From Clostridia bacterium (lineage in GTDB: Bacteria > Bacillota > Clostridia > Oscillospirales > SIG627), in the NCBI GenBank assembly GCA_017517325.1, contig JAFWZW010000024.1:54370-118369 (forward strand): a DNA stretch of 64,000 nt. Reading direction: 5' to 3'. Shown here in pieces: positions 12,096-60,621 of the stretch. The notes below the pieces were generated by a model. The model made no database searches. It saw only the letters and a list, made by a program, of their open reading frames with translations, and was not told the origin of the DNA. A program made the position numbers and the translations under genes. Within the stretch, counting starts at the first letter, position 1; every line of letters begins with the position of its first letter.

Positions 12096-12124
12096 TTGCA
12101 AAAACCGCAGCAATTTGTTATAAT
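12096..12124 (+). promoter_or_regulatory. promoter of the fumarase-Hdr-fumarate reductase operon
   Basis: TTGCAA (12096-12101), 17-bp spacer, TATAAT (12119-12124). No terminator follows until 22321, so one transcript of about 10 kb is likely. Confidence 0.7.
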
Positions 12125-12191: not shown

Positions 12192-13567
12192 ATGGAATAT
12201 CGCATTGAACACGACTCTATGGGTGAGGTTAAGGTACCTGCCGACAAGTACTGGGCAGCACAGACGGAGCGTAGCCACGAGAACTTTAAGATCGGCGTAG
12301 GGATTGAGACTATGCCCCGCGAGATCGCCCGCGCTTTCGGCGTTCTGAAAAAGGCCGCCGCCATTGCCAACCACGCCTTGAAGCCCGAAAAGATGACCGC
12401 TGAAAAGCTTGACGCCATTCAAAACCTTGCGACGAGGTAATGGCAGGAACCCTCAACGATCATTTCCCCCTGGTGGTATGGCAGACCGGTTCCGGTACCC
12501 AATCCAATATGAACGCAAACGAGGTCATTGCCAACCGCGGCAACGAGCTTGCAGGTCAGAAACTTCTGCATCCCAACGATGACATCAATATGTCCCAAAG
12601 CTCCAACGATACCTTCCCTACCGCGATGCACATTGCGGCCGTAGAGGCAATTGAAGATAAGCTGTTCCCCGCTATGGATCTTCTCATTTCCACACTGGTT
12701 CGCCTTGAAAAGGAAAATGAGGGCATCGTAAAGAGCGGCAGAACGCACCTGCAGGATGCAACCCCCATTCGTTTCTCTCAAGAGATCAGCGGCTGGAGAA
12801 GCAGTCTGGAAAAGGACAAGGAGCTTTTGAACGCTTCCCTGCCTCACCTGAAGGAACTGGCATTGGGTGGCACCGCCGTTGGTACCGGTCTCAACGCTCC
12901 CAAGGGCTTTGACGAAAAGGTTGCCGAGGCCGTATCCCAGATCACCGGCAAAAACTTCGTTACCGCAGACAACAAATTCCACGCTCTTACCTCCAAGGAT
13001 GAATTGGTATTTGCTCACGGTGCTCTGAAGGCATTGGCCGCAGACCTGATGAAGATCGCCAACGACATTCGCTGGCTGGCAAGCGGTCCCAGACTCGGCA
13101 TCGGTGAGATCTTTATTCCCGAAAACGAGCCCGGCTCCTCCATTATGCCCGGCAAGGTGAACCCCACCCAATGTGAAGCAGTGACCATGGTTGCCGTTCA
13201 GGTTATGGGTAACGACGTGGCCGTTGGTATGGCCGCAAGTCAGGGCAACTTCGAGCTGAACGTATTTATGCCCGTTTGCATTTACAACTTCCTGCAGTCC
13301 GCACGCCTTTTGGCAGAATCCATCGTTTCCTTTAACGATAACTGCGTAACCGGCATTCGCGCCAACAAGGAAAAGATGCACGATAACCTTCACAACTCTT
13401 TGATGCTGGTAACTGCGCTGAATCCCTACATCGGTTATGAAAACGCTGCAAAGACCGTAAAAAAGGCGTTTAAGGAAGATATTTCCCTGAAAGAAGCCTG
13501 CGTTGCACTGGGCTTTTTGTCCGCGGAAAAATTTGACGAGGTTTTCCGTCCTGAAGATATGGCTTAA
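12192..13567 (+). pseudogene. fumC: class II fumarase with a single-base frameshift
   Basis: FumC interconverts fumarate and malate. Codons 1-82 (12192-12440) read as the start of FumC but end in TAA at 12438-12440. The rest continues in another frame from an ATG at 12440 (375 aa). Removing one frame shift near 12429-12431 (one base missing between CTT and GAC) joins them into a normal full-length protein with DEVMAG restored. The second part keeps the catalytic signatures [23 protein letters not shown] and [12 protein letters not shown]. Stop and restart overlap as TAATG, which would allow reinitiation, but the large fragment lacks about 80 residues. This is either a real inactivating mutation or a sequencing error. 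No slippery heptamer supports programmed frameshifting. Confidence 0.85.
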
Positions 13568-13593
13568 TTTTCAAAACCAGAAAGGAACTCACA

Positions 13594-14370
13594 ATGGTTT
13601 TTCAATATTATCCCGGTTGCACCCTGAAGACCCGCGCCAAAGAGCTTGACCGCAAGGCAAGACTTTGCGCCGAAGCGCTGGGCGTTCAATTGGAAGAGAT
13701 CAAAGATTGGCAATGCTGTGGCGGCTGTTACCCGGTTGCAAAGGACGAGATCGCCACCAAGCTTTCCGCCGTTCGCGCTATGATGGCTGCAAAGGATGCC
13801 GGCACCCCTGTGGTTACCGTTTGCTCTGCCTGCCACAACGTATTGAAGCGTACCAATCACGATATGCAGACGGATGAGGTGATCCGCGACCGTGTCAACC
13901 GCTACCTGAAGCCTGATGTACCCTACGCAGGGGAAGGCGAGGTTCTGCATTTTCTTGAAATGCTCCGTGACAAGGTCGGCTTTGATACCATCCGCGAAAA
14001 GGTAAAGAATCCCCTGACGGGCAGAAAGATCGGCGCTTACTACGGCTGTCTTCTGCTCCGTCCCGGCAAAGTAATGGCCTTTGACGATCCTGAAAACCCC
14101 TCTATTATGGAGGACTTCATTACCGCTTTGGGTGCAGAGGCAGTCAGATACCCTTACCGCAACGAATGCTGCGGGGCATATCTTGCTCTGGAGGATCAGG
14201 CCATCACCAAAAAGAAAAGCTCCGCCGTACTGCACAGTGCTAAATGCGCCGGTGCACAGGAAGTGATCACCGCCTGCCCCCTTTGCCTTTATAACCTGCA
14301 GAAGTGCGGGGACGATCTCCCCGTGGTCTATTTCACCGAGCTTCTCTTTGAAGCCCTGGGTCTGGAATAA
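13594..14370 (+). CDS. hdrB: HdrB-like heterodisulfide reductase subunit B
   Basis: 258 aa with two complete CCG domains: Cys9, Cys41-Cys42-Gly and Cys77/Cys80, then Cys152, Cys192-Cys193-Gly and Cys228/Cys231. In methanogen HdrB these ligate two non-cubane [4Fe-4S] clusters that cleave the CoM-S-S-CoB disulfide; in bacteria the true acceptor is often unknown. Here it lies between fumarase and fumarate-reductase-like genes, so it probably passes electrons to the FrdAB module. AAAGGA site; 26 nt after fumC. Confidence 0.88.
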   Translation: MVFQYYPGCTLKTRAKELDRKARLCAEALGVQLEEIKDWQCCGGCYPVAKDEIATKLSAVRAMMAAKDAGTPVVTVCSACHNVLKRTNHDMQTDEVIRDRVNRYLKPDVPYAGEGEVLHFLEMLRDKVGFDTIREKVKNPLTGRKIGAYYGCLLLRPGKVMAFDDPENPSIMEDFITALGAEAVRYPYRNECCGAYLALEDQAITKKKSSAVLHSAKCAGAQEVITACPLCLYNLQKCGDDLPVVYFTELLFEALGLE

Positions 14371-14382
14371 GGAGGCGTAGCC

Positions 14383-14769
14383 ATGGAACAGAAAAACCTG
14401 AAAGAAGAGATTCTCCGCATCAGCGGTGTTAACCCCAGAAAATGTATGAAATGCGGAAAATGCAGTGGTACTTGCCCCTCCTATGAAGAGATGGATTTTC
14501 ACCCCCACCAGTTCGTTTATATGGTGGAAAGCGGGGATATTGAGCCTTTGATGGCATCCGGATCCCTTTACCGCTGTCTTACCTGCTTTGCCTGCGTGGA
14601 GCGTTGCCCCCGTCAGGTAGAGCCGGCAAAGCTCATTGAAGCAGTACGTCTTACGGTAATCCGTCAGCAGGGACAAAATCATTTGAAGCCCGATCAGCTC
14701 CCCGGTATGCTGGATGAGGATATGCCTCAGCAGGCGCTGGTCTCTGCAATGAGAAAATTCGCAAAATAG
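14383..14769 (+). CDS. hdrC: HdrC-like 4Fe-4S electron-transfer subunit
   Basis: 128 aa with two CX2CX2CX3C[P] ferredoxin motifs (Cys21/24/27/31 and Cys65/68/71/75), as in HdrC, which wires HdrA to HdrB. AAGGAGG site; 12 nt downstream of hdrB and 9 nt upstream of hdrA, the canonical order for these subunits in bacteria. Soluble: no haem-binding or membrane segment as found in HdrE/DsrM. Confidence 0.9.
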   Translation: MEQKNLKEEILRISGVNPRKCMKCGKCSGTCPSYEEMDFHPHQFVYMVESGDIEPLMASGSLYRCLTCFACVERCPRQVEPAKLIEAVRLTVIRQQGQNHLKPDQLPGMLDEDMPQQALVSAMRKFAK

Positions 14770-14778
14770 GAGGATACT

Positions 14779-16770
14779 ATGCAAAGAATCGGCGTTTTCG
14801 TTTGCTGGTGCGGTAGCAACATTGCCGCAACCGTTGATGTAAAAGCCGTAGCCGAAGCTCTGGGAAAAGAGCCCGGCGTGGTTTATTTCGAAGATTATCA
14901 ATATATGTGCTCCGAGGAAGGACAGAACAAGATCAAAAACGCCATCCGTGATTACAAACTCACCGGCGCCGTGATCTGCTCCTGCTCTCCCCGTATGCAC
15001 GAAAACACCTTCCGTAAGGCTGCCGCCGCAGCAGGCATCAACTCCTTTATGGTGGAGATCGCCAACATCCGCGAGCAATGCTCCTGGATCCACAAGGACA
15101 AGGTCAGCGCCACGGAAAAGGCTATTATTTTAGGCAGAGCCGCCATTGCAAAAGTACACCTGAATGCACCCCTGACCGCAGGTGAAAGCCCCGTAGTCAA
15201 GCGCGCACTGGTGATCGGCGGCGGTATTGCGGGCATTCAGACGGCTCTTGACATCGCCGATGCCGGCTTTGAAGTTGACATCGTGGAAAAGAAGCCTACC
15301 ATCGGCGGCAAAATGAGCCAGATCGACAAGACCTTCCCCACCCTGGACTGCGCCGCCTGCATTCTTACTCCCAAAATGGTTGACGTTGCCCAAAACGAAA
15401 AGATCCGCATTTTCTCCTACAGCGAAGTGGATGCGGTCAAAGGCTTCGTGGGGAATTTCAAGGTCTCCATTCGCCGCAAGGCAAGATTTGTAGATGAAGT
15501 AAAATGCACAGGCTGCGGTCTCTGTACCGAAAAATGCCCCCAGAAAAAGGTTCCCAATGAATTCAATTTAGGGCTGGATCAGAGAAGAGCCATTTACATC
15601 CCCTTTGCTCAGGCCGTTCCCAAGGTTGCAACCATTGACGCTGACTACTGCACCATGCTGAAGACCGGCAAGTGCGGCGTTTGCTCCAAGGTTTGTGCCG
15701 CAGGGGCCATCGACTACAAGCAAAAGGATACCTTTGTGGAGGAGGAATACGGCGCCATCGTAGTGGCAACGGGCTTTAACCCCATTGAACTGAAAAAATA
15801 CGACGAGTTTGCCTATTCCCAATCTCCCGACGTTATTACCTCTCTGGAATTTGAACGGATCACCAACGCCGCAGGCCCCACCGGTGGCACCCTGCTTCGT
15901 CCCTCCGACGGGACCCACCCAAAAAAGATCGTATTCGTACAGTGCGTGGGCAGCCGTGAAGACGGAGGCGGATGCGGTAAGACGTACTGCTCCAAGATCT
16001 GCTGTATGTACACCGCCAAGCACGCTATGCTTACCAGAGAAAAATACCCCGATACAGAGGTTTACGTATTCTACATTGACGTTCGTACCCCCGGCAAGAG
16101 CTTTGATGAATTTTATCGCAGAGCGGTAGAGGAATACGGCGTTCACTACGTTAAGGGTATGGTTGGTAAGGTTTCTCCCGAAAACGGAAAACTGATGGTG
16201 CGCGCTTCCGATCTCATCGAAGGCAAGCAGTTGAACATTGACGCAGATCTGGTGGTACTTGCTGCAGCCATTGAGCCGGATCAGTCCGCAAGACCTCTTG
16301 CTACGATGCTCACCGCTTCGATGGATACCAACGATTTCTTTACGGAAGCACACCCCAAGCTTCGCCCTGTGGAAAGCCCCACCGCCGGCATTTTCCTTTC
16401 CGGCTGTTGTCAGGGCCCCAAGGATATCCCCGAAACGGTTGCACAGGCTTCCGCTTGCGCCGCCAAGGTCATCGGCCTTTTGGCAAAGGACAAGCTCACC
16501 TGTAACGCCTGCGTGGCTCATTCTTCTGAAATGCTCTGTAACGGATGCTCCACCTGCGAAAAAGTTTGCCCCTACGGTGCCATCAGCTACGAGGAAAAGG
16601 AATTCAGAATGCCCGATCGCACCACAAGAGTTCGCCGTGTTGCCAGCGTTAACCCTGCCGTTTGCCAGGGCTGTGGCGCTTGTACCGTTGCCTGCCCCAG
16701 CGGCGCAATGGATCTTCACGGCTTCTCCAACAGACAAATCATGGCGGAGGTAGATGCAATATGCAAATAG
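14779..16770 (+). CDS. hdrA: HdrA-like flavoprotein, candidate electron-bifurcating subunit
   Basis: 663 aa. A short N-terminal cysteine-bearing region (CWCGSN) precedes the FAD Rossmann motif VIGGGIAGIQTALDIADAG (about residue 145), the HdrA-typical DCAACILTPKM cysteine stretch, a ferredoxin-like insert (CTGCGLCTEKCP and CGVCSKVC) and two C-terminal [4Fe-4S] motifs (CNGCSTCEKVCP and CQGCGACTVACP). HdrA carries the FAD that splits electrons between a high- and a low-potential path. Its C-terminus overlaps the MvhD-like gene by 10 bp. Confidence 0.9.
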   Translation: MQRIGVFVCWCGSNIAATVDVKAVAEALGKEPGVVYFEDYQYMCSEEGQNKIKNAIRDYKLTGAVICSCSPRMHENTFRKAAAAAGINSFMVEIANIREQCSWIHKDKVSATEKAIILGRAAIAKVHLNAPLTAGESPVVKRALVIGGGIAGIQTALDIADAGFEVDIVEKKPTIGGKMSQIDKTFPTLDCAACILTPKMVDVAQNEKIRIFSYSEVDAVKGFVGNFKVSIRRKARFVDEVKCTGCGLCTEKCPQKKVPNEFNLGLDQRRAIYIPFAQAVPKVATIDADYCTMLKTGKCGVCSKVCAAGAIDYKQKDTFVEEEYGAIVVATGFNPIELKKYDEFAYSQSPDVITSLEFERITNAAGPTGGTLLRPSDGTHPKKIVFVQCVGSREDGGGCGKTYCSKICCMYTAKHAMLTREKYPDTEVYVFYIDVRTPGKSFDEFYRRAVEEYGVHYVKGMVGKVSPENGKLMVRASDLIEGKQLNIDADLVVLAAAIEPDQSARPLATMLTASMDTNDFFTEAHPKLRPVESPTAGIFLSGCCQGPKDIPETVAQASACAAKVIGLLAKDKLTCNACVAHSSEMLCNGCSTCEKVCPYGAISYEEKEFRMPDRTTRVRRVASVNPAVCQGCGACTVACPSGAMDLHGFSNRQIMAEVDAICK

Positions 16771-17198
16771 AAGAAAAGTTTGAGCCGACCATCGTAGCTT
16801 TCTGCTGCAACTGGTGCTCTTATGCAGGCGCTGACCTTTCCGGTACCAACCGTCTCCAGTATCCTGCCAACGTAAAGATCATCCGTGTTCCCTGCTCCTG
16901 CAGAGTGAATCCTATGTTTATTCTTCGCGCATTTCAGCGCGGAGCTGACGGTGTTATCCTTTGCGGTTGCCACCCCGGTGACTGCCATTACACCACCGGC
17001 AACTACTATGCACGCCGCCGTATGACCCTGCTCTTTTCTATGCTGGATTTTCTGGGCATTGAAAGAGAGCGCACCCGCGTTGAATGGGTCAGCGCCGCAG
17101 AAGGTGCCAAGTTTGCTGCCACTATGAACGATTTCGTCGCCACCGTTACCCGTTTGGGTAAAAACCGGAGATTGGAGGATCTGAGATGCAAAAAGTAA
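16761..17198 (+). CDS. mvhD: MvhD/FlxD-like iron-sulfur protein
   Basis: 145 aa. The conserved cysteines (Cys15, Cys16, Cys19, Cys45, Cys68, Cys70, Cys75, including CGCHPGDCHY) are those of the MvhD family, a [2Fe-2S] protein that docks an electron-input module onto HdrA. The start at 16761 lies inside the end of hdrA, with GGAGG about 11 nt upstream. The end overlaps the next gene by 13 bp. Together with the following three genes this matches the FlxABCD logic (NAD(P)H input to HdrABC). Confidence 0.88.
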   Translation: MQIEEKFEPTIVAFCCNWCSYAGADLSGTNRLQYPANVKIIRVPCSCRVNPMFILRAFQRGADGVILCGCHPGDCHYTTGNYYARRRMTLLFSMLDFLGIERERTRVEWVSAAEGAKFAATMNDFVATVTRLGKNRRLEDLRCKK

Positions 17199-18154
17199 TT
17201 CGTGAAAAAGCCATCGAGCTCCTGAGATCCGGCAAGGTCGACCGTGTATTGGGCTGGAAAGAGGGCGAATTTTTCTACGATCAGACGCCCCATCTGTTCC
17301 TCTCCCCCGAGGAAGTGGAACGCACGTTCGTTTATAACGGTTTTTCAGGTGCCAACCTTTCCAAGTATCTGGTAAAGGAGGGCTTGAAAGAGGGCGTCGT
17401 TGCCGTATTCCTGAAGCCCTGTGATACTTATTCCTTCAGCCAGCTCTTGAAGGAGCACCGCATTGCAAGAGATAAGATTTGGGCAGTGGGCATCCCCTGC
17501 GAAGGAAAGCTGGATATCGAGCTCCTCCGCAAAATGGGGATCCGCGGCATTAAGACCATTGAGGAAAAAGGAGACGAGCTTCTCGTTTCTACCATTTACG
17601 GTGAAAAGACCGTAGCGAAGAAGGACGTACTGGCAGAACGCTGTGCCAACTGCAAGAGCCGCAAGCACGTTCTTTACGACGAGCTTTTGGGTGAAGAGGG
17701 AGAGGTTTTAGATTCCGCCCGCTTCGATCAGATCGAAAAGCTGGAGCAAATGACCAGCGAGGAGAGATTTGCTTTCTGGCAGAACGAGCTTTCCCGCTGT
17801 ATCCGCTGTAACGCCTGCAGAAACGTATGTCCCGCCTGCACCTGCGAAAAATGTGTATTTGACAATGCAGATTCAGGCATTGCCTCCAAGGCACCCGCAT
17901 CCTCCTTTGAGGAGCAGAATTTCCACATCATCCGCGCCTTCCACGTGGTTGGAAGATGCACCGACTGCGGCGAATGCTCCCGCGTTTGCCCTCAGGGGAT
18001 CCCGCTCCATCTGATCAACCGAAAGTTCATCAAGGATATCAACGCCTTTTACGGTGCTTATCAGGCTGGGGAAAACCCAGACGAAAGAGCGCCTTTGACC
18101 AATTACAGCACCGAGGACATGGAGCCCGGTGATGTATTCAAGAAGGGAGAGTAA
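17186..18154 (+). CDS. FrhB/FlxB-like 4Fe-4S electron-transfer protein
   Basis: 322 aa. The N-terminal half resembles the FrhB/FdhB-type domain (hydrophobic core, VFLKPCDTYSF, AVGIPCEGKLDI). A CANCKSRKH site follows, then two ferredoxin motifs (CIRCNACRNVCPACTCEKC and CTDCGECSRVCPQGIP). Such proteins relay electrons between a flavin subunit and partner clusters. It is encoded between the MvhD-like and AsrA-like subunits. GGAGGATC site upstream. The precise subunit name (FlxB versus FlxC) cannot be settled from sequence alone. Confidence 0.75.
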   Translation: MQKVIREKAIELLRSGKVDRVLGWKEGEFFYDQTPHLFLSPEEVERTFVYNGFSGANLSKYLVKEGLKEGVVAVFLKPCDTYSFSQLLKEHRIARDKIWAVGIPCEGKLDIELLRKMGIRGIKTIEEKGDELLVSTIYGEKTVAKKDVLAERCANCKSRKHVLYDELLGEEGEVLDSARFDQIEKLEQMTSEERFAFWQNELSRCIRCNACRNVCPACTCEKCVFDNADSGIASKAPASSFEEQNFHIIRAFHVVGRCTDCGECSRVCPQGIPLHLINRKFIKDINAFYGAYQAGENPDERAPLTNYSTEDMEPGDVFKKGE

Positions 18155-18158
18155 GAAA

Positions 18159-19178
18159 ATGAAAAGCATTTCGTTATCAAATCTCCCCGAGCTTCTTTCC
18201 GCCATTGCAGCAAAGGAAGCGCTTTACCTCCCTGTTGACACCAAGGAAGGGGCCGAATATAAGGCCTATGCCGAGGGAGACAGCCTTTCCCTTGCCTGCA
18301 ACACCAACCGCTCCGCCAAGGATTTCTTCTTCCCTCAGGTGGAGGATATGGCGGCCTTCAAGGTGGAAGGCAAAAAGATCGAGATCATTGACGTTCGCAA
18401 GGAAACCGAGGATTTCGTGATCTTTGGTGCCAGAGCCTGCGACGTAAAGAGCTTTGAGGTCCTGGATCGGGTATTCCTTGCGGACCCCGTTGATACCTTC
18501 TATAAAAATCGCAGAGAGCATAGCACCGTGGTTGCCCTTGCTTGCTCTGCACCGGAAGAGACCTGCTTCTGTTCCTCCTTTGGGATCGACGCAGCTGAGC
18601 CTCAGGGTGATGTAAGCGCCTGGATCGCAGAAGGCAGAATGTTCTTCAAACCCAACACCCAAAAGGGTGAAACACTCCTTTCCGCCCTTTCCGCGCTTTT
18701 GGAAGAAAGCGACGGGGCAGCCGTGGAAAAAGCAAAGGAAGAGACCCGCACGATTATGGGTCAGCTTCCCCTGCAAAACCTGCCCACGGAGCATTTTAAG
18801 CCCGAAAAGCTGATGGAGCACTTCAACGACCCCAAATGGAAGGAGCTTTCTCAGGCCTGCATTGGTTGCGGTACCTGCACCTTCGTTTGCCCCACCTGTC
18901 AGTGCTTCGACATTCGTGATTTCGACACCGGAAACGGGATCCAGCGTTACCGCTGCTGGGATTCCTGTATGTATTCCGACTTTACGCAAATGGCGGCCGA
19001 TCAGCCCAGACACACGCAGTTGGAGCGCTTCCGCCAGAGATTTATGCACAAGCTTGTGTACTACCCTGCCAACAACGAAGGGCTCTTCGGCTGTGTAGGC
19101 TGTGGCAGATGCCTTGCAAAGTGCCCCATTTCCATGAACATTGCAAAGGTTATGAAAGCATTGGGAGGTGACAAATAG
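18159..19178 (+). CDS. sulfhydrogenase beta / AsrA-like 4Fe-4S subunit
   Basis: 339 aa. The family core FGARACDVKSFEVLDRVFL (about residues 92-110), a CSAPEETCFCSSFG segment and two C-terminal ferredoxin motifs (CIGCGTCTFVCPTCQC and CVGCGRCLAKCP) match the beta subunit of Pyrococcus sulfhydrogenase and anaerobic sulfite reductase AsrA, and the FlxB/C proteins. It should pass electrons from the following NAD(P)H oxidoreductase. The ATG at 18159 lies 4 nt after the previous stop; its stop overlaps the next GTG by one base. Confidence 0.8.
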   Translation: MKSISLSNLPELLSAIAAKEALYLPVDTKEGAEYKAYAEGDSLSLACNTNRSAKDFFFPQVEDMAAFKVEGKKIEIIDVRKETEDFVIFGARACDVKSFEVLDRVFLADPVDTFYKNRREHSTVVALACSAPEETCFCSSFGIDAAEPQGDVSAWIAEGRMFFKPNTQKGETLLSALSALLEESDGAAVEKAKEETRTIMGQLPLQNLPTEHFKPEKLMEHFNDPKWKELSQACIGCGTCTFVCPTCQCFDIRDFDTGNGIQRYRCWDSCMYSDFTQMAADQPRHTQLERFRQRFMHKLVYYPANNEGLFGCVGCGRCLAKCPISMNIAKVMKALGGDK

Positions 19179-20005
19179 TGGAAAAAGAAGCTTTGATTCC
19201 CGAGATCGGTATCGTTACCGACATTCGCATCGACACCCCTGACGTTCGCACCTTCCGCGTGGTTACACCCGACGGTAAAAAGCCCTTCGTACACATTCCC
19301 GGTCAGTGCGCTATGCTTTCCATTCCCGGCGTAGGTGAGGCGCTGTTTTCCATTACCTCCTCCCCCACCAACACCGAATTTATGGAGTTTTCCATTAAGA
19401 AGTGCGGCTGTGTTACCAGCTTTCTTCACTCCATTGAGCCCGGCCAGTACGTAACCATCCGCGGCCCTTACGGCAACGGATTCCCGGTGGAGAGCGCCTT
19501 TAAAGGCAAGGACATGCTCTTCGTGGCAGGCGGTATCGGCCTCGCGCCCTTGCGCTCCGTTATCAATTACTGCCGCCATTACCGCGAAAACTACGGCAAG
19601 ATCGACATCGTTTACGGCTCCCGCTCTATGCAGGATCTGGTGGATTACAACGAGATCGTGGAGGAATGGTGCAAAGAGGACGGGATCAGCGTTCATCTGA
19701 CCATTGACCGCGAACAACCCGAATGGGACGGCCACGTAGGCTTCGTGCCCAATTTCGTAAAGGAATTGCAGTTCGACACCAACAAGACCGCTGTTCTCTG
19801 CGGCCCGCCCATTATGATCAAATTCACCCTTGCAGGACTTCAGGAAATGGGCTTCAAGAAGGACCAGATCTACACCACCCTTGAGATGCGTATGAAATGC
19901 GGCATCGGTAAATGCGGCAGATGCAACTTAGGTGACAAGTTTATTTGCAAAGACGGACCGGTCTTCCGCTTCGATCAGCTGGAAGAGCTTCCGGATGAAT
20001 ATTGA
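19178..20005 (+). CDS. FlxA/AsrB-like FAD- and NAD(P)H-binding oxidoreductase
   Basis: 275-aa ferredoxin-reductase-fold protein. Order: FAD domain (SITSSPTNTEFMEFSIK), NAD(P) domain (VAGGIGLAPLRSVI near residue 116; CGPPIMI near 208), and a C-terminal [2Fe-2S] cysteine cluster CGIGKCGRC...C as in dihydroorotate dehydrogenase electron-transfer and AsrB/FlxA subunits. It is the likely NAD(P)H entry point of the complex. GTG start at 19178 immediately at the previous stop. Confidence 0.86.
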   Translation: MEKEALIPEIGIVTDIRIDTPDVRTFRVVTPDGKKPFVHIPGQCAMLSIPGVGEALFSITSSPTNTEFMEFSIKKCGCVTSFLHSIEPGQYVTIRGPYGNGFPVESAFKGKDMLFVAGGIGLAPLRSVINYCRHYRENYGKIDIVYGSRSMQDLVDYNEIVEEWCKEDGISVHLTIDREQPEWDGHVGFVPNFVKELQFDTNKTAVLCGPPIMIKFTLAGLQEMGFKKDQIYTTLEMRMKCGIGKCGRCNLGDKFICKDGPVFRFDQLEELPDEY

Positions 20006-20030
20006 TTCTTCGGTGAAAGGATAAAGTACA

Positions 20031-20705
20031 ATGGAACAAACCGTTAATATTTTTCTGTACGGCAAAAAATACGCCGTACCCTCCAATCTTACCATTATGG
20101 CCGCAATGGAATATGCCGGCTATCAGCTCACCCGCGGTTGCGGATGCCGCAACGGCTTCTGCGGTGCCTGCGCTACCATCTACCGCATCAAGGGTGACAC
20201 CGAACTGAAGGTCTGCCTCGCCTGCCAGACCAAGGTGGAAGAGAATATGTACATCGCAACCCTTCCCTTCTTCCCGCTGGTAAAGCAGGTTTACGACATT
20301 CAGAAGATCGGTCCTACCGAACAGATCATGATGCAGCTTTACCCCGAGATCTACAGCTGTATCGGCTGCAACGCCTGCACCAAGGCTTGCACCCAGAGCC
20401 TGAACGTTATGCAGTACATTGCATACGCACAGAGAGGCGAATATGAAAAGTGCGCGGAAGAGAGTTTTGACTGCGTTATGTGCGGTGTTTGCTCCTCCCG
20501 TTGCCCCGCAGGCATCAGTCATCCGCAGGTGGCAATGCTGGCAAGAAGACTCAACGGAAAATACCTGGCTCCCGAATGCGGCCACTTAAAGGACCGCGTG
20601 AAAGAGATCAACGACGGTACCTTCCAGGAGCTGATGGAAGCTTTGATGCAAAAGCCTCTGACAGAGCTGAAGGAACTGTACAACAACCGCGAGATCGAGA
20701 AATAA
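20031..20705 (+). CDS. FrdB/SdhB-like iron-sulfur subunit
   Basis: 224 aa. The N-terminal plant-type [2Fe-2S] fold (CGCRNGFCGAC near residue 38 and CLAC near 65) is followed by two ferredoxin motifs (CIGCNACTKACT and CVMCGVCSSRCP). This is the FrdB layout, except that the C-terminal motifs look like two [4Fe-4S] sites. It has no CCG domain, unlike methanogen TfrB, but HdrB is encoded in the same operon. AAAGGA site. It pairs with the following flavoprotein. Confidence 0.85.
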   Translation: MEQTVNIFLYGKKYAVPSNLTIMAAMEYAGYQLTRGCGCRNGFCGACATIYRIKGDTELKVCLACQTKVEENMYIATLPFFPLVKQVYDIQKIGPTEQIMMQLYPEIYSCIGCNACTKACTQSLNVMQYIAYAQRGEYEKCAEESFDCVMCGVCSSRCPAGISHPQVAMLARRLNGKYLAPECGHLKDRVKEINDGTFQELMEALMQKPLTELKELYNNREIEK

Positions 20706-20717
20706 GGGGGGATCACG

Positions 20718-22313
20718 ATGTATAACGAAAAAATGCGCGAATCCATGGCAAAGGTGGAAGCAAACCGCGAAGCCAACGCAAAAATGGATCCCAGAAGAAT
20801 GACCGCCGAGGAGAAGGAAACGCTGCTTGCAACCTTCCACCCCGACTATATTGAAAACCAATTTACCACCCTGACTGTAGGCCCCAACAAGGGCGAAAAG
20901 GTTCCCCTTGAGCTTTGCGCTTTGCTGGAAGCCAATTCCAGAGTAAAGGGATTGCAGATCGATCTGGAAAACCCTACCTACGACGTTGACGTTCTCATCA
21001 TCGGTGGCGGCGGTGCCGGATCCAGCGCGGCCATCGAAGCCCACGAAAAGGGCGCAAACGTTATGATCGTTACCAAGCTTCGTATTGGTGACGCCAATAC
21101 GATGATGGCTGAGGGCGGTATTCAGGCGGCTGACAAGCCCAATGACTCCCCTGCGATCCACTATATCGACGCTTTAGGCGGCGGTCACTTTGCCAACAAG
21201 CCTGAGCTTCTTTACCGCCTTGTAACCGAAGCACCCGATGCCATTGCCTGGCTGAACGATTTAGGCGTTGAATTTGACAAAATGCCCGACGGTACTATGG
21301 TCACCACCCACGGTGGCGGTACCAGCCGCAAGAGAATGCACGCCGCAAAAGACTATTCCGGTGCCGAGATCATGCGTACCCTGCGTGATGAGGTATTAAA
21401 CCGCGATATTCCCGTTGTGGATTTCACCAGTGCCATTGAGCTGATTCTGGACGACAAGGGCAATGCCGCAGGCGCCGTTCTTATGAATATGGAAACCGGC
21501 GAAATTATGGTGGCACGTGCCAAAACCGTGATCATTGCCACCGGCGGTTGCGGAAGACTGCACTATCAGGGCTTTCCCACCTCCAACCACTACGGTGCCA
21601 CCGCAGACGGTTTGGTTCTGGGCTACCGCGCCGGGGCCAAGCTTCTCTATCAGGACACCCTGCAGTATCACCCCACCGGTGCCGCTTACCCCGAACAGAT
21701 CTTCGGCGCGCTGGTTACCGAAAAGGTACGCTCTCTGGGTGCTATGCTCATCAACGTTGACGGCGTTCCCTTTATGAATCCTCTGGAGACCCGTGACGTT
21801 TCCGCCGCTTCCATCATTCGCGAATGCAAGGAGCGGGGCAAGGGCGTTGAGACTCCCGAGGGCTACGGCATCTGGCTCGACACGCCTATGATCGAGCTGA
21901 AGGGCGGCGAGGGCACCATCGAAAAGAGAATCCCCGCCATGATGAGAATGTTCGGCAAATACGGTATTGACATCCGCAAAGAGCCCATCCTCATTTACCC
22001 CACCCTGCACTATCAGAATGGCGGTCTTGAGATCAAGGCTGACAACGAGACCTGCATTCCCGGTCTTTACGTTGCAGGGGAAGCCGTTGGCGGTATTCAC
22101 GGCAGAAACCGCCTGATGGGCAACTCCCTTTTGGATATCATCGTATTCGGCAGAAGCGCCGGTAAGAACGCCGCCGACAAGGCAAAGGACGTTGTACTGG
22201 GCAAGCTGACTCTGGATCACGTCGAAAAATTCGCCAAGGAAATGGAAGATGCCGGCATCAAAACCGACGTTGTTTCCCCAAAACTCCTTCCCGATTACAC
22301 CAGAAAGGTTTAA
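20718..22313 (+). CDS. fumarate reductase/succinate dehydrogenase-like flavoprotein subunit
   Basis: 531 aa. A 90-residue N-terminal extension precedes the FAD motif VLIIGGGGAGSSAAIEA (residues 96-101 GGGGAG). The active-site elements of the fumarate reductase family are present: YHPTG (His318), Arg338, His431 in the LHYQNGG segment, and Arg465 in the HGRNRLMGNSLLD loop. The usual RGEGG after the catalytic Arg reads RSLGA instead. The likely reaction is fumarate reduction to succinate in the cytosol, but another enoate cannot be excluded. No cytochrome b or membrane anchor gene follows. Last gene of the operon. Confidence 0.85.
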   Translation: MYNEKMRESMAKVEANREANAKMDPRRMTAEEKETLLATFHPDYIENQFTTLTVGPNKGEKVPLELCALLEANSRVKGLQIDLENPTYDVDVLIIGGGGAGSSAAIEAHEKGANVMIVTKLRIGDANTMMAEGGIQAADKPNDSPAIHYIDALGGGHFANKPELLYRLVTEAPDAIAWLNDLGVEFDKMPDGTMVTTHGGGTSRKRMHAAKDYSGAEIMRTLRDEVLNRDIPVVDFTSAIELILDDKGNAAGAVLMNMETGEIMVARAKTVIIATGGCGRLHYQGFPTSNHYGATADGLVLGYRAGAKLLYQDTLQYHPTGAAYPEQIFGALVTEKVRSLGAMLINVDGVPFMNPLETRDVSAASIIRECKERGKGVETPEGYGIWLDTPMIELKGGEGTIEKRIPAMMRMFGKYGIDIRKEPILIYPTLHYQNGGLEIKADNETCIPGLYVAGEAVGGIHGRNRLMGNSLLDIIVFGRSAGKNAADKAKDVVLGKLTLDHVEKFAKEMEDAGIKTDVVSPKLLPDYTRKV

Positions 22314-22320
22314 TTCGTAT

Positions 22321-22357
22321 AAAAAAAGAAGATCACGAACGTGATCTTCTTTTTTTG
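22321..22357. terminator. bidirectional terminator of the fumarate reductase operon
   Basis: A perfect inverted repeat: AAAGAAGATCAC, a tight loop, GTGATCTTCTTT, with A and T runs outside. It lies between the convergent flavoprotein and DUF4886 genes. Confidence 0.88.
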
Positions 22358-22369
22358 TTTGCTTATCTT

Positions 22370-36784: not shown

Positions 36785-37360
36785 GTGATTTCCATTGAAA
36801 AACGCCTTGGCGATATCGCTGAGATTATGGCCGGCATTCCAGGCTTTGCCGATAAAGGCAGATATAAATATAAAGTTGTGCAGCCAAACAGTTTTACGGA
36901 TACCGGCGCGATGAATGCTGTTGAGACGCAAAAGCGCGGTGATGAAATATCGCAGAGGCAGTTGCTTGCTCCGGGTGACATCCTTGTTAAAAGATTAAAC
37001 CCCTCGTTTGTACACGTGGTTACTTTGGAATCAGCGGGCATGGCTGTTTCGCAGAATCTGCTGGTTGTAAGACCAGGAAACGAAGTAGACCCGTACTACC
37101 TGGGTTATCTGCTTGAACAAAAAGAAATTCTTGGACAAGTAGAACACGTAACCGGAAGCGCAGCGGCAATTAAAGCAATATCCATCAAGAAACTGGCGGA
37201 TATTATGGTACCAATTATACCGCTCACAGATCAGCGCAAGGTAGGAGAGGTTTGGAAACTTTCCCGCAAACGCAAACAACTATTAAACGACTACATGGCC
37301 GAAAGCGATAGATTAGTTTCTATGCTGGCTTCGAGAATAATCAGTGGTGGAGGAAAATGA
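36785..37360 (+). CDS. hsdS: half-size type I restriction specificity subunit (one target-recognition domain)
   Basis: 191 aa, about half of a normal HsdS. One target-recognition domain (LGDIAEIMAGIPGFADKGRYKYKVVQP to PIIPLTDQRKVGEVWKLSRKRKQLL pattern) and one conserved helix that spaces the domains. Half-S proteins can dimerise to recognise a palindromic bipartite site or swap with the full S. The GTG at 36785 is 6 nt after GGAGGGGG; TTG at 36782 is the alternative. First gene of the RM operon, two nt before hsdM. Confidence 0.8.
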   Translation: MISIEKRLGDIAEIMAGIPGFADKGRYKYKVVQPNSFTDTGAMNAVETQKRGDEISQRQLLAPGDILVKRLNPSFVHVVTLESAGMAVSQNLLVVRPGNEVDPYYLGYLLEQKEILGQVEHVTGSAAAIKAISIKKLADIMVPIIPLTDQRKVGEVWKLSRKRKQLLNDYMAESDRLVSMLASRIISGGGK

Positions 37361-39318: not shown

Positions 39319-39648
39319 TTGTCTGCACTTGAATTTTTCACAGGATTTATTACCGTGTTCGAAGACCTTGTGTGGGACTGGATTGCCGGTAGCATCTTGG
39401 TGACTGCATCTGGTAGTATTGCTTACGCCATCGGCGGGCAACTTGGCTATAGCGGAAAAGTTGGCTGGGTTTTATGGCTGATCACAGCAGTGGCTATATA
39501 CGCTGTAATCGCGTGTATCATACGAGCGATTATGTGGCTGATTGCACTCCCCTGGTGGGTGTGGCCGATCGTAGGCTCGGTGATTGTAGTGGGCATTGTT
39601 TTAGCTTTCATACTGAAATATAGATCAAAGAGCGGTGAAACACGATGA
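39319..39648 (+). CDS. small multi-pass membrane protein
   Basis: 109 aa with three hydrophobic segments (about 20-45, 48-72 and 76-98), aromatic-rich (WWVWP). Starts at TTG with GGAGG 7 nt upstream; no ATG fits. Its stop overlaps the next hsdS start (ATGA). No family recognised. With the preceding coiled-coil protein it forms a two-gene membrane insertion inside the RM operon. Confidence 0.6.
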   Translation: MSALEFFTGFITVFEDLVWDWIAGSILVTASGSIAYAIGGQLGYSGKVGWVLWLITAVAIYAVIACIIRAIMWLIALPWWVWPIVGSVIVVGIVLAFILKYRSKSGETR

Positions 39649-43060: not shown

Positions 43061-46000
43061 ATGCCCAATCATCAGATTTTTAATGAGCGTCCAGAATCCC
43101 AGGACAGAGCACTGAAAGAACTTCAGGCAATGGGATATCAATATATTCCCAGAGCAGAGGCCGAGCAGAAGCGCGGCCATCTTTCGCATGTTCTTTTCCC
43201 GGAAGTGTTGCGGGAGTTCTTGGCATCTCAATCTTTCATGTATAGAGGGATGAAGACTCCTTTCCCGGATGATGCCATTGGTGAAGCGATCCGCGATTTG
43301 GATGCGCCATTGGAGCGTGGCCTGATGTTTTCCAGCAAGGCGATTTACGATCGACTGATCTATGGAAAGAGCTGTGATGTTAACCTGTATGACGGCAACA
43401 CGCAGTCCTTTGATATTTCCTACATCGACTGGGAACATCCTGAAAACAACATCTGGCAGGTTACAGATGAGTTTTCTGTGGAGCGTCCCAACGGTAAATA
43501 TGCGCGCCCGGATATTGTTCTACTTGTGAATGGTATTCCGCTGGTCGTAATCGAGTGTAAAAAATCCAGTGTAGACGTAGAAGAAGGCGTGAAGCAGAAC
43601 GTCCGCAACTGGCAACCGGATTATATTCCTCAACTGTTCAAGTTTACGCAGCTTGCTATTGCTATGAACCCGGAAACCGTAAAATATGGTACGGCCGGAA
43701 CAAAACAGGAGTTTTACTGCAAGTGGCACGAAGAAGATGTGCAATGGCAGGAGGAAGCGGCAAAGCGCTATGTAGATGACGGTCATATCACCGAGCAGGA
43801 CCGTGTAATCGTATCTATGCTGTCAAAACAGCGCTTGCTGAATATTATTCGATTTTTTATTCTGTATGATAGCGGCATTAAGAAAGTCGCCCGTTATCAG
43901 CAGTTCTTTGGTGTTGAAAATACAATGCGTCGCATCCATGGTGAGGATGATTGCCCCACCAGAGGCGGCGTCATTTGGCATACTCAGGGTAGTGGAAAAT
44001 CCCTGACAATGGTTATGCTTGTCAAACGTATTATTGCTGACGAGCGTGTTAAAAATCCGCGTTTTGTATTGGTGTGCGACCGCTTGAATCTGATTAAGCA
44101 GCTGCGGGACAACTTTGTTCATACTGGCATGGATCCGGTAGAGGCTACTACCGGTCGTGGGCTTGTGACATTGCTTACGGATTCGGCAAACACGTTGATC
44201 GCAACAACGATCAATAAGTTTGAGGCGGCAGCAAAGTCACGTGCAAAGGTAACCGATGAGAACATTTTCCTTCTGATCGACGAAAGCCATCGTTCTCATA
44301 CCGGCGAATTCCATAATATGATGAACGAAGTGCTTCCCAACGCGTTCAAGATTGGTTTTACAGGTACTCCTCTGCTCCGAAAGGATAAGAGCAACACTTA
44401 TCTGAAGTTTGGTAAGCAGATTGGACATTCTTATCGTTTTGAGGATGGTATCCGCGACGGCGTTATCGTGCCGCTGGTTTATGATGGAAGAATTATTCCT
44501 CAAAAAGTGACCAGTGATAAAATTGATGATTATCTCAAGAGCATTCTTGCTCCGTTGACCGAACCCCAGAAGGAAGATATGCGCAGAAAGTGGAGTTCCT
44601 TTATGCACTTAGCACAGACGGAGCAGCGGCTTTCTATGATCGCCTTTGATATTCATGAGCATTTCTTGAATTATTGTAAGCCGCGTGGATTCAAAGCTAT
44701 GGCGGCGGTGTCCACGCGTGCGCTGGCAGTACAGCTGGAGCGCGCGATCAATGGGCTAGGTGGCGTGAAGGCAGCAGCACTTATTTGTGACGATTCTGTT
44801 TCAACAGAAGGTGATGAAGGTGTTGTCACTAACAATGATAAAGCGATCATTCGCGACTTTTTCAAGAAAGAAGTAGAACCCCGCTTCGGAACAAAGTATG
44901 AGGCATATGAGGAATACGTAAAAGATAACATCCGTGGCGGTGAGGATATTGATATTGTAATTGTACAGAGCATGCTGCTCACCGGTTTTGATGCCCCGTC
45001 TTTGGGCGTACTCTATGTCGATAAACCGATGAAGGAACATTCTCTGTTGCAGGCTATTGCGCGTGTAAATCGTATTGCAGCAGGCAAGGACTTTGGTCTG
45101 ATTGTTGACTATTGGGGATTGTTCGGTAATCTGAACAGTGCCATGGAAATGTATAGCGATGATCAGTCCGGATTGTCCGGTTATGATCCTGCGGATATTG
45201 CAGATTCCATCGCTACAGCATCTGAGGGTCAAGAAAAACTAAAGGAAGCGCACAAAGCATTGTGGGATTTCTTTGGCAATGCTTCCTTTGATCAGAATAA
45301 CCCTAGAGCTTGGGTTGCGTTCTTTGAAAAAGAAGATGCGGACGAAAGTGAAAAGCTGAGAAAAGAGTTCTACGAAAAACTGGCTGCATTTTCCAAGATG
45401 ATGACCATGGCAGTAGGAAACTATTCCATGTACCAGGCTATCGGGTTTGACCAGATGCAAAAATATAAAGCCGATTTGTTGTTCTTCCAGAAGCTGCGCT
45501 CTGCACTGATGATGGTGTATGCAGAAAAAGTGGACTTCAGCAAATATGAAGATGGTATCAGAAGCTTGCTGAATACTTTCGTTACATCGGAGCCTGTAGA
45601 AATCGTTGTAGAACCGGTAGCGATCCATGATAAAGCTGCTATGGACCAGCAGTTGGAGGAAGTGGAAGGCCAGAAAGCAAAAGCTGCATATATCCACACT
45701 CGTATTGTTTCAGAGCTGGAATCCAGAAGATACGAGGACCCCATGTTGTTCAAGCGATTCTCCGAAAGAATTCGCGAGACTATTGCAGAGTACAAAAAAT
45801 CGCGTGACGAAAACGTATATCTTGCGAGCATGAAGAAAATGGCGGAAGATCTCCGTCAAGGATTCACCGGCCACTCCTATCCTTCTGCGATTACCAATGA
45901 TAGCGATGCAAAGGCGTTCTATGGTGTTGTTGCAGATACGTTGAAGCAGCATGGAGAAGATAGCCTGGAATTCGACGATGCGATCGGTAAATTGGCGTTG

Positions 46001-58069: not shown

Positions 58070-58416
58070 GTATACTGGGGTTCTGTGTTAAACTGGGCCC
58101 ATTTTGCGGAACTTTTTCTTATATCTTTTCATACGCGACTTTCTTAGAAAAAGAACCAGTAAAGAACAGTACCCCAGTAGAAGGGCATTTATGCCCTTCA
58201 GGCGACGGTTTTATAACACCGAACAACTGAGGTAGTCTGAAACGAATTTGGGGTAACTTTTCCTATATTCTTTCTTACGCGACTTTTACCATAAAAGGAA
58301 TCAGAAATATTCAGTTGTTCAGTAAATTATAGTTTCCGCGCCTATGGCTTTTTATGAAGGGGTGTATAGGGGAAACAAAAAAATATGATATAATCCCCAT
58401 AAAGGAGGTGGTGTGT

Positions 58417-58455
58417 ATGATAGTGCGAGGCACGCTTTGGAATCAAACAAAATAG
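58417..58455 (+). CDS. 12-codon leader peptide before istA
   Basis: ATG 58417 with AAAGGAGGTG 7 nt upstream encodes MIVRGTLWNQTK and stops at 58455, within the istA ribosome site region. It may control istA translation by coupling. Too small to be sure it is made. Confidence 0.4.
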   Translation: MIVRGTLWNQTK

Positions 58456-58472
58456 AAGGAGGTAAAACAAAG

Positions 58473-59957
58473 ATGATTTCCAAAGAACAGTTTTTAACGA
58501 TCAAACGACTCAAGCAAGAAGGTGTGCCGATCGCCGCCATTGCAAGAAGAATTGGCATATCGGAGCCAACCACACGCAAATGGGCCAACATGAGCGAAGC
58601 AGGCTTCGATGAGCTGAAAAAGGACGATACCCCATACTTAGACAACTATCACGAATTCATCCTCAGCATCCTGCGGGTGTGTCCGCAAACCAGAGAGACC
58701 AACATTCTGTACCGACTGAGGGAGGAATTTCCAGACTTCGAGTGCCGAAAGACTACCTTTTACAAGTACATGAGAAAGCTGCGGGAGCAGACCGGATTTG
58801 TTCAATTCACCGGACGTGTCACTTCGCTGCGGGAGGAATCACCGCCGGGATACGAAGCACAGGTGGATTTCGGTCAGTACCGCATGAAGGATATGTACGG
58901 CAAACCGGTGCGGGTGTACTTCTTCTGCATGGTGCTGGCATATAGCCGCATGCACTATGTGTATTTCAGCCGAGATCCCTTTACCACCAAGACCGCCATC
59001 CAAGCCCACGAATATGCCTTTCAGTTTTTCGGAGGCAGAACACAGATGATTGTGTATGATCAGGATCGGGTGTTTGTGGTGGATGAGAATTTCGGCAATA
59101 TCGTGCTGGTACCAAGGTTTGAGGAATACGTCAAAAAGGTGGGCTTCAGCGTCCGTCTTTGTCGTCCCCACGATCCGCAATCCAAAGGCAAGGTGGAGAC
59201 CTTTGTGCGCTACATCAAAGAGAGCTTTTTAGCAGGCAGAATCTACAAAGGAATCGACTCTTTGAACAGCGACGCCTTGCGTTGGCTGGATGCCGAAGGA
59301 AACGGTACAACCAACCTGCGCACCCGCAAACCGCCACGGGTTATGTTCCGCGAGGAAGCGCAGCACTTAACCAGAGTGCAGTTCTCTGACGAAGGCTTCT
59401 CGGAAATCCGAAGCGTGTCAGATAAATACACGGTGAAAATCGATTGGAGCGTTTACGAGCTGCCACGTGCAGCAGTCAAACCTTTTGAACAAGTCCGAGT
59501 GGAGGAACAGGACGGTATGCTGCTCTTTTACAAAGCGGCAGAAAACGAACTGATTCATAAATGCCCACGACGCGAATCTCCTGGAGGTACAACCTCCTAC
59601 GAGGGCAATAGCCGCAAGGGAGACTCAGTAGCAAGCAACTCCTTTCGATTGCGTTTCGAGGCATATGACGTAGCGGAGGCTTTTGCCAGTCAGGTGGAGG
59701 AAACAGAACCGCGATACAAAAATCTACAGCTTGGCCGCATGCTGACACTGTCCAACGTGTTCACCATGGAACAAATGGTAGAAGCCATGGACTACTGCGT
59801 GAATATCGGCATTTGCTCGGCAGCCGAAGTAACAGCGTTTCTCATCTACCGCCACGGTAAGGACTATATTACAAAAAACATCTCGAAAAACGCCTATTAT
59901 CGCAATCGTGAGCGGGCTGAAGAAATAAGGAGGGAGCAAGATGGCAGGTATCGCTGA
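58473..59957 (+). CDS. istA: IS21-family transposase IstA
   Basis: 494 aa. N-terminal helix-turn-helix (IKRLKQEGVPIAAIARRIGISEPTTRKW) followed by a DDE integrase core: QVDFGQ (first Asp), MIVYDQD (second Asp) and QSKGKVETFV (Glu), then a beta-rich C-terminal domain. It cuts and joins the element ends. AGAAGGAGGT site; the alternative upstream frame is not preferred. Overlaps istB by 17 bp. Confidence 0.92.
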   Translation: MISKEQFLTIKRLKQEGVPIAAIARRIGISEPTTRKWANMSEAGFDELKKDDTPYLDNYHEFILSILRVCPQTRETNILYRLREEFPDFECRKTTFYKYMRKLREQTGFVQFTGRVTSLREESPPGYEAQVDFGQYRMKDMYGKPVRVYFFCMVLAYSRMHYVYFSRDPFTTKTAIQAHEYAFQFFGGRTQMIVYDQDRVFVVDENFGNIVLVPRFEEYVKKVGFSVRLCRPHDPQSKGKVETFVRYIKESFLAGRIYKGIDSLNSDALRWLDAEGNGTTNLRTRKPPRVMFREEAQHLTRVQFSDEGFSEIRSVSDKYTVKIDWSVYELPRAAVKPFEQVRVEEQDGMLLFYKAAENELIHKCPRRESPGGTTSYEGNSRKGDSVASNSFRLRFEAYDVAEAFASQVEETEPRYKNLQLGRMLTLSNVFTMEQMVEAMDYCVNIGICSAAEVTAFLIYRHGKDYITKNISKNAYYRNRERAEEIRREQDGRYR

Positions 59958-60621
59958 ATTACAACAACTGGCGCAGCAGCTTGGCCTTACCCACATCACC
60001 AGCGGCAAGGTGGATTTAGGCAATGAGACTCTCTCGAATACCGACTACCTCAAGCAGATATTCGAAGCAGAGGTACAAGCCAGAGAAAACGAAGCACTGG
60101 ACCGTAGACGCAAAGCCAGCAATCTTCCGCATCGTGTGTTCACCACCGGCAAGCTCAACAAAGGCGTCAAGTGGCAGATTGAGCAGTTGGGGCAACTGGA
60201 CTGGATAGAAGCATCAGAGGACATCGCCATTATCGGCCGCTGTGACACAGGCAAAACATCCCTGGCAGTCCACTTAGGCGAGCTGGCACTGAAAGGCGGC
60301 TATCGCGTTTACTACTGTAACATCGACGTGTTCCTGCAGATCTTACGAAACAAAGACACCGTCGATAAATACCACCGGAAGTTCCGGTACATGATAAGCT
60401 GTGATCTGATCATCATTGATGAGCTGATGTACGTAGCTTTATCCGAACAAGACTTGCCGCTATTTTACAGAGCGGTCAACTTCCTTAAAGAGGAACGAAG
60501 CATAATCTACATAACAAACAGAGAACTGTCAGAGTGGCCCCAGGTGGCAGATGATAAGCACCTGATGGAAACCCTGACACAGAAGATCATGAGCAGCAGC
60601 CAACAGATACGGCTGCAATAG
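59941..60621 (+). CDS. istB: IS21-family helper ATPase IstB
   Basis: 226-aa AAA+ protein related to DnaC. Walker A GRCDTGKTSLA (usually GxxGxGKT), Walker B LIIIDELMY, sensor YITNRELSEW. It selects target DNA and activates IstA. The usual C-terminal SYR-like end after QQIR is missing, so the protein stops some residues early; it may still be active. Confidence 0.9.
   Translation: MAGIAELQQLAQQLGLTHITSGKVDLGNETLSNTDYLKQIFEAEVQARENEALDRRRKASNLPHRVFTTGKLNKGVKWQIEQLGQLDWIEASEDIAIIGRCDTGKTSLAVHLGELALKGGYRVYYCNIDVFLQILRNKDTVDKYHRKFRYMISCDLIIIDELMYVALSEQDLPLFYRAVNFLKEERSIIYITNRELSEWPQVADDKHLMETLTQKIMSSSQQIRLQ

Follow-up and report, generated by a model that had tools for sequence, protein, structure and literature searches.

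A ten-gene operon of a Clostridia bacterium that probably encodes a soluble NADH-dependent fumarate reductase on a Flx-Hdr core

Introduction

What reaction is catalyzed by the products of an operon in which a fumarase gene and two fumarate reductase genes (frdB and frdA) enclose a full set of hdr and flx genes? This question is raised by positions 12192 to 22313 of a 64,000-nucleotide stretch of contig JAFWZW010000024.1 from a Clostridia bacterium, referred to here as the window. A first-pass annotation had read these genes as one operon for a cytosolic, Hdr/Flx-linked fumarate reductase. Our analysis indicates that the operon probably encodes a soluble fumarate reductase that depends on reduced nicotinamide adenine dinucleotide (NADH) and is built on a Flx-Hdr electron-bifurcating core, that is, an NADH:ferredoxin/fumarate complex. 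From the genes we infer its assembly as a single complex, the bifurcation, the electron route, the use of NADH over NADPH, and the direction of the reaction. Throughout, statements on papers cited by PMC number refer to excerpts of those papers.

Results

Gene content and gene order

Gene families were assigned by Pfam and NCBIfam scans, with fumC scanned through its 3' frame only. The expected domains lay where the first-pass annotation had placed the genes; its gene set stood, whereas a frameshift in fumC and unusual features of FrdA and FrdB had been overlooked. The ten genes, all on the plus strand, are as follows.

12192..12440, + strand: fumC, 5' part (class II fumarase), with a stop after the frameshift (open reading frame)
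12440..13567, + strand: fumC, 3' part in a different frame, 375 amino acids (fumC_II, 614 bits, NCBIfam)
13594..14370, + strand: hdrB, two CCG domains (Pfam), all ten CCG cysteines conserved
14383..14769, + strand: hdrC, two [4Fe-4S] motifs (Pfam, NCBIfam, alignment)
14779..16770, + strand: hdrA, flavin adenine dinucleotide (FAD) site and several [4Fe-4S] motifs (683 bits to 5odc_A)
16761..17198, + strand: mvhD/flxD (FlpD), adaptor subunit (PF02662, 188 bits)
17186..18154, + strand: flxC-like iron-sulfur protein, named by position and resemblance (Pfam, alignment)
18159..19178, + strand: flxB-like iron-sulfur protein, AsrA/hydrogenase-beta family (Pfam, NCBIfam)
19178..20005, + strand: flxA-like NAD(P)H/FAD/iron-sulfur flavoprotein, AsrB/hydrogenase-gamma family (Pfam, NCBIfam)
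20031..20705, + strand: frdB, [2Fe-2S] and two four-cysteine [4Fe-4S] motifs (Pfam, alignments)
20718..22313, + strand: frdA, fumarate reductase flavoprotein (Pfam, NCBIfam, alignments, structure prediction)

The labels FlxA, FlxB, and FlxC denote position and family resemblance. No membrane anchor gene lies within the unit at 12192..22313. The gene identities, the missing anchor, and the cytosolic enzyme of the first-pass annotation are supported.

Gene order was compared in a near set, composed of the best 80 of at least 575 relatives confirmed by a FrdA scan of genome contigs and selected by FrdA similarity, and in 40 class/order loci drawn from 59 carriers other than the window's own genome. 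The nine-gene core hdrB-hdrC-hdrA-mvhD-flxC-flxB-flxA-frdB-frdA was complete and ordered in 56 of the 80 near relatives, with the other 24 cut by a contig end and their remaining genes in order; it was also complete in 36 of the 40 class/order loci, the other 4 being cut by contig ends. The order was contradicted by none of the 120 loci (adjacent pieces of one split gene were counted as one), and its conservation is far beyond chance. The ten-gene order, for which a search in other genomes had been suggested at first pass, was recovered as the core with fumC first in 53 of the 80 near relatives. FrdA matches were present in 27 of the 147 order genomes, 34 of the 245 class genomes, and 46 of the 398 phylum genomes, the own genome being included in each count. 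Carriers occurred in the window's own genus, family, and order, with a patchy distribution (four listed genomes of the same family were without); horizontal transfer of the operon into the window's genome is conceivable. The ten-gene unit was also present in a named strain, Eubacterium coprostanoligenes ATCC 51222 (locus L027).

According to the gene coordinates, neighboring genes overlap by 1 to 13 bp or are separated by 4 to 26 bp. Two signal-like elements lie at the ends of the unit.

12096..12124, + strand: promoter-like site TTGCAA-17-TATAAT upstream of fumC, 10/12 with TG before the second hexamer (consensus match only)
22319..22358, + strand: intrinsic terminator-like stem of 18 pairs with a T-rich tail, downstream of frdA

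Across the region, neither promoter-like matches (10 observed versus 7.6 expected from shuffled sequence) nor terminator-like matches (14 versus 14.4) exceeded chance, and further plus-strand promoter-like matches, 10/12 each, lie within the operon at 14081, 15275, and 21274. Since such matches occur at shuffled-sequence frequency and equal scores are found inside the operon, the case for a single unit leans mainly on spacing and conserved order. On these grounds, we infer that the ten genes form one transcription unit, in line with the one-operon claim of the first-pass annotation; judged by spacing, separate transcription of frdBA is unlikely.

Fumarase exchange beside a constant core

Among the related loci that carry fumC, 68 of 71 had an intact frame and the remaining 3 were interrupted by a contig end; thus, the frameshift is specific to the window and is either a true mutation or an assembly error. 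A fumarase gene accompanied the complete core in 53 of the 56 near relatives, where fumC came first, and in 30 of the 36 class/order loci. Among these 36 loci, fumC was first in 18 and a class I fumarase followed frdA in 12, while none was seen in 6, for which about 3 kb downstream was searched and one of which is cut upstream. This exchange of fumarase for an unrelated class next to an unchanged core provides independent evidence pointing to fumarate as the substrate on which the complex would work.

Active site and cofactor sites of FrdA and FrdB

FrdA residues H318, E335, R359, H431, and R465 correspond to E. coli H233, E246, R288, H356, and R391, which we take to be active-site residues of Frd structures. 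Of 75 wider homologues, all 75 conserved these five residues and 74 conserved T334 as well. The predicted FrdA structure (mean predicted local distance difference test score of 76, poor around the FAD site) gave E. coli FrdA as its top Foldseek match, with a template modeling (TM) score of 0.66; what the prediction supports is a FrdA-like core fold. FAD_binding_2 reductases include enzymes acting on other enoates, and urocanate reductase was among the PDB matches of FrdA, so that FrdA might reduce an enoate other than fumarate. Nonetheless, the conserved fumarate active site, the presence of an FrdB partner, and a fumarase neighbor maintained despite its replacement by an unrelated class make this alternative very improbable.

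Two cofactor sites depart from E. coli Frd. Where E. coli FrdA has His45, the residue that binds FAD covalently, an asparagine (Asn127 in the window) stands in all 75 wider homologues and in all 81 sequences of the near set including the window. In FrdB, Cys151 was present in 75 of 75 wider homologues, at a position where E. coli FrdB has Val; we take this to be the site of the [3Fe-4S] cluster adjoining the quinone in complex II. Given this fourth cysteine, the site should carry a [4Fe-4S] cluster here in place of the quinone-side [3Fe-4S] cluster. Moreover, aligned with E. coli FrdA, window FrdA is about 85 residues longer at the N terminus, and its C-terminal end falls at about residue 480 of the 602 in the E. 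coli protein, with no PF02910 match.

The lost histidine bears on the direction of the reaction. Every step could reverse, and some phylum homologues adjoin malic enzyme and class I fumarase, as might be expected if the complex confurcated succinate oxidation with ferredoxin and NAD+, like syntrophic propionate oxidation. In E. coli Frd, however, loss of the covalent-FAD histidine spares fumarate reduction and impairs succinate oxidation. Furthermore, Pseudoclostridium thermosuccinogenes, with the same gene set, produces succinate (PMC7282089). We therefore consider the reverse direction improbable.

Hdr subunits and the destination of the electrons

All ten CCG cysteines of HdrB were retained in 57 of 57 near-set sequences and 54 of 54 wider homologues. 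In a Pfam scan of FrdB (224 amino acids), the CCG domain PF02754 was not found; thus, FrdAB itself shows no obvious site for a thiol. These data can be set against a thiol shuttle, in which Flx-Hdr would bifurcate between ferredoxin and a small disulfide or disulfide protein, and FrdAB, as a separate enzyme, would oxidize the resulting dithiol to reduce fumarate in the style of methanogen Tfr. In favor of such a shuttle are the complete HdrB cysteine set, the name NADH dehydrogenase/heterodisulfide reductase given to Flx-Hdr in PMC7282089, and TfrA as the best NCBIfam model for FrdA, although its 348 bits fall under the model's cutoff of 718. On the other hand, the TfrB model carries a CCG domain that FrdB does not match, DsrC was not found in the window's 81% complete genome, and no thiol carrier is known here. 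The shuttle is weakened by the CCG-less FrdB and the DsrC result, and we regard it as unlikely.

Over residues 3 to 660, HdrA aligns to 5odc_A at 683 bits, so that almost its whole length is shared with the HdrA chains of HdrABC complexes of known structure. Each of the four four-cysteine motifs in HdrA was invariant in 58 of 58 relatives. The intact HdrA assumed at first pass was upheld as to its near end-to-end alignment and cluster motifs, in a comparison of length and cysteines rather than of bifurcating-flavin ligands. The same complex could, in principle, send both electrons to fumarate and merely dispose of NADH: electron flow from NADH to fumarate is strongly downhill alone by the potentials in PMC5861303, and no sequence feature that we examined proves bifurcation. 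Yet a full-length HdrA with its ferredoxin-like cluster motifs kept would be costly if idle, and the effect of H2 on P. thermosuccinogenes has been argued, as a hypothesis, to reflect a ferredoxin link (PMC7282089). Such a nonbifurcating enzyme is, in our judgment, quite unlikely.

In the bifurcating NADH:ferredoxin/fumarate complex, which we favor, the fumarase of the operon would supply fumarate from malate. NADH would deliver hydride to FlxA, and the electrons would reach the HdrA FAD by way of FlxB/FlxC and MvhD, where the pair would be split. One electron would reach ferredoxin via the ferredoxin-like domains of HdrA; the second would travel from HdrC through HdrB and FrdB to FrdA, where fumarate would be reduced. 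Two turns would give 2 NADH + fumarate + Fd(ox) -> 2 NAD+ + succinate + Fd(red), with reduced ferredoxin (Fd) then being used by Rnf or a hydrogenase. Ferredoxin has a potential of -420 to -500 mV. With +33 mV for fumarate/succinate and -320 mV for NAD (PMC5861303), we calculated about -33 to -49 kJ/mol for the overall reaction at standard potentials, which allows the coupling energetically.

Anchor, quinone, and partner genes in the genome

The window belongs to a metagenome-assembled genome (MAG) of 1.74 Mb in 24 contigs that is 81% complete. The Sdh/Frd anchor PF01127 (Sdh_cyt) was not found in this MAG, with 7 of 14 control genomes positive, in agreement with the anchor-free enzyme of the first-pass annotation; a membrane-linked Frd with a distant anchor gene was rejected for want of a PF01127 match in the 81% complete MAG. 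UbiA was not found in the MAG either, with 14 of 14 controls positive. DsrC (PF04358) gave no match in the 81% complete MAG and was set aside as a partner. The MAG contains RnfC (463 bits; the Rnf search covered RnfC only) and one [FeFe] hydrogenase. Its sole CCG domains are the two of window HdrB, and its one full-length FAD_binding_2 protein is window FrdA; the other ten FAD_binding_2 matches were short or weak, and a second FrdA accounting for fumarate reduction was thereby discarded.

UbiA was surveyed in 77 other carriers, composed of 24 of 33 from the class and 19 of 26 from the order (picked for completeness) and 34 of 40 strong-match carriers from the phylum. It scored above the cutoff in 5 of the 43 class/order carriers (4 more were below the cutoff) versus 26 of the 34 phylum carriers. 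This contrast is consistent with a quinone-free role of the Flx type, though it is confounded by ancestry, and a match to the UbiA superfamily is no proof of quinone.

Other genomic settings of FrdAB

The phylum sample comprised 36 loci of the 41 strong matches besides the window's own (40 genomes). FrdAB followed hdrC-hdrB only in 4 loci, which suggests HdrBC as the FrdAB partner, preceded hdrB-hdrC-hdrA in 4, followed a module of two HdrA-like proteins, mvhD, and a FlxC-like gene in 9, and stood with a complete Flx set in 1 (L173). Class I fumarase and malic enzyme often accompany the phylum loci. In the FrdA tree (80 rows), the hdrCB type and the hdrBCA type each formed one clade, and 44 of 45 Flx rows fell in a single clade of 48, two of whose outer branches are long. 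Thus, one FrdAB head with several electron inputs is suggested, with HdrBC as the common partner wherever Hdr genes occur.

L158, L161, L162, and L166 are minimal hdrC-hdrB-frdB-frdA operons, and all four genomes carry UbiA; they possibly encode an HdrBC-docked fumarate reductase linked to quinone or thiol. Among the twin-HdrA loci, L151, L153, L155, L163, L165, L171, L172, and L174 have the module with MvhD and the FlxC-like protein, no FlxA/FlxB, and often malic enzyme; one HdrA-like protein of L151 is about 1070 amino acids long. The ninth, L169, has a second hdrC-hdrB. In L173, hdrC precedes hdrB and FrdA branches apart from the main Flx clade, and an independent assembly of the Flx-Hdr-Frd set is possible.

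A broader reading, which we offer tentatively and hold to be less probable than its opposite, is that FrdAB of this clade serves as a soluble, portable head for fumarate reduction, docked on HdrBC and accepting interchangeable feeders. Its traits would be an N-terminal extension replacing the usual C-terminal domain, noncovalent FAD, and an all-[4Fe-4S] FrdB. In quinone-poor gut Clostridia the feeder would be a bifurcating Flx-NADH module, in lineages with UbiA only HdrBC, and elsewhere HdrABC or twin-HdrA modules. If so, fumarate reduction with energy conservation would have a second, quinone-free architecture that is common among gut bacteria.

Surroundings of the operon

Farther along the window, 37344-57539 is likely a defense island. 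It holds type I restriction-modification genes (M at 37344, S at 39645, and R at 43061) and a gene pair with PADLOC matches to ZacB (408 bits) and ZacC (879 bits), upstream of which lies a PDC-S07 match (51283). From 36 kb onward, G+C content drops from about 0.51 to about 0.40 to 0.47 and GC skew becomes positive. At 58413-60621, two overlapping open reading frames resemble, by eye, an IS21-type istA/istB pair.

Discussion

Several observations weigh against an NADH-dependent, bifurcating complex. It is known here from genes and single-chain comparison, and neither cofactor choice nor bifurcation is readable from sequence. HdrB retains the full cysteine complement of a disulfide reductase, and its true substrate may therefore be a disulfide. 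In 18 of the 36 phylum loci, no Hdr gene accompanies FrdA(B) within the sequence examined, some of these loci being contig-cut and one (L175) being a second FrdA copy without frdB, and in the FrdA tree four of the 18 are nested inside the principal Flx clade; thus, FrdAB can be fed otherwise. UbiA is present in 5 of the 43 class/order carriers, the DsrC control search was positive in just 1 of 14 genomes, and absences from a MAG that is only 81% complete are provisional. In the window assembly, fumC is broken by the frameshift near 12438. Finally, PMC7282089 terms the effects of H2 and Na2S on succinate contradictory.

Many gut and rumen Clostridia may form succinate without quinones or cytochromes. 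If ferredoxin coupling holds, succinate formation would give extra ion-motive force via Rnf, or extra H2, and fermentation energetics as well as models of gut succinate and H2 would change. The ten-gene unit in E. coprostanoligenes ATCC 51222 renders the hypothesis testable; a literature search on succinate formation by this species gave, judging by titles, work on communities or diets.

Among known systems, FlxABCD-HdrABC of Desulfovibrio vulgaris shares its Flx and Hdr subunits with the window; that unit, attributed to Ramos in 2015, reportedly lacks FrdAB and has DsrC as presumed partner. HdrABC-MvhAGD (5odc) shares HdrA, HdrB, HdrC, and MvhD, but it uses H2 and heterodisulfide, whereas NADH and fumarate are proposed here. 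Methanogen TfrAB likewise ties Frd to a CCG protein and takes electrons from thiol; its CCG part is fused into TfrB, whereas HdrB is separate and FrdB short in the window. The TfrB model (488 positions) is split over window FrdB (17-93), HdrC (121-220), and HdrB (381-471), and window FrdB has no fused C-terminal CCG of the TfrB type. The anchor, covalent-FAD histidine, and [3Fe-4S] motif of quinol:fumarate reductase and complex II were not found, nor was the SdhE anchor of 8-methylmenaquinol:fumarate reductase: window HdrB has SdhE as its top NCBIfam model, with a score of 161 bits that lies under the cutoff of 500.

Closest in gene list is the "succinate operon" of P. thermosuccinogenes (CDQ83_RS03320-03365), described as fumarate hydratase, Flx-Hdr (seven locus tags), fumarate reductase (two), and a hypothetical gene (PMC7282089). 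Like the window, it joins fumarase, a Flx-Hdr block, and two Frd genes under the same bifurcation hypothesis; the comparison covers the gene list, and the organism differs in being a thermophile with the additional downstream hypothetical gene. The operon was about 4-fold upregulated under CO2 limitation, although not significantly for every subunit, and its ferredoxin coupling is assumed with reference to a 2019 preprint (10.20944/preprints201912.0288.v1). In tubeworm symbionts and Thioflavicoccus, flxABCD-hdrABC is intermixed with tfrAB and korABCD in reductive tricarboxylic acid cycle clusters, and direct electron shuttling from flxABCD-hdrABC to thiol:fumarate reductase TfrAB was proposed (PMC6315080). 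These clusters, likened by description rather than sequence, share Flx-Hdr beside a soluble fumarate reductase and differ in their autotrophic hosts, TfrAB type, and link to 2-oxoglutarate:ferredoxin oxidoreductase. In the titles and abstract openings covered by our searches of the open PMC literature, we met no purification of such a complex and nothing on its breadth in gut Clostridia, fumarase swapping, or FrdA/FrdB cofactor-site changes, and the excerpts of PMC10579422 and PMC7325909 do not describe the operon. Thus, the Flx-Hdr-Frd combination noted at first pass belongs to a concept already in print (2019-2020), of which the window operon is a further, widespread example of a little-tested idea. 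New here are the breadth, the fumarase swapping, the cofactor-site changes that speak against quinone linkage, and the one FrdAB head beside several different Hdr modules.

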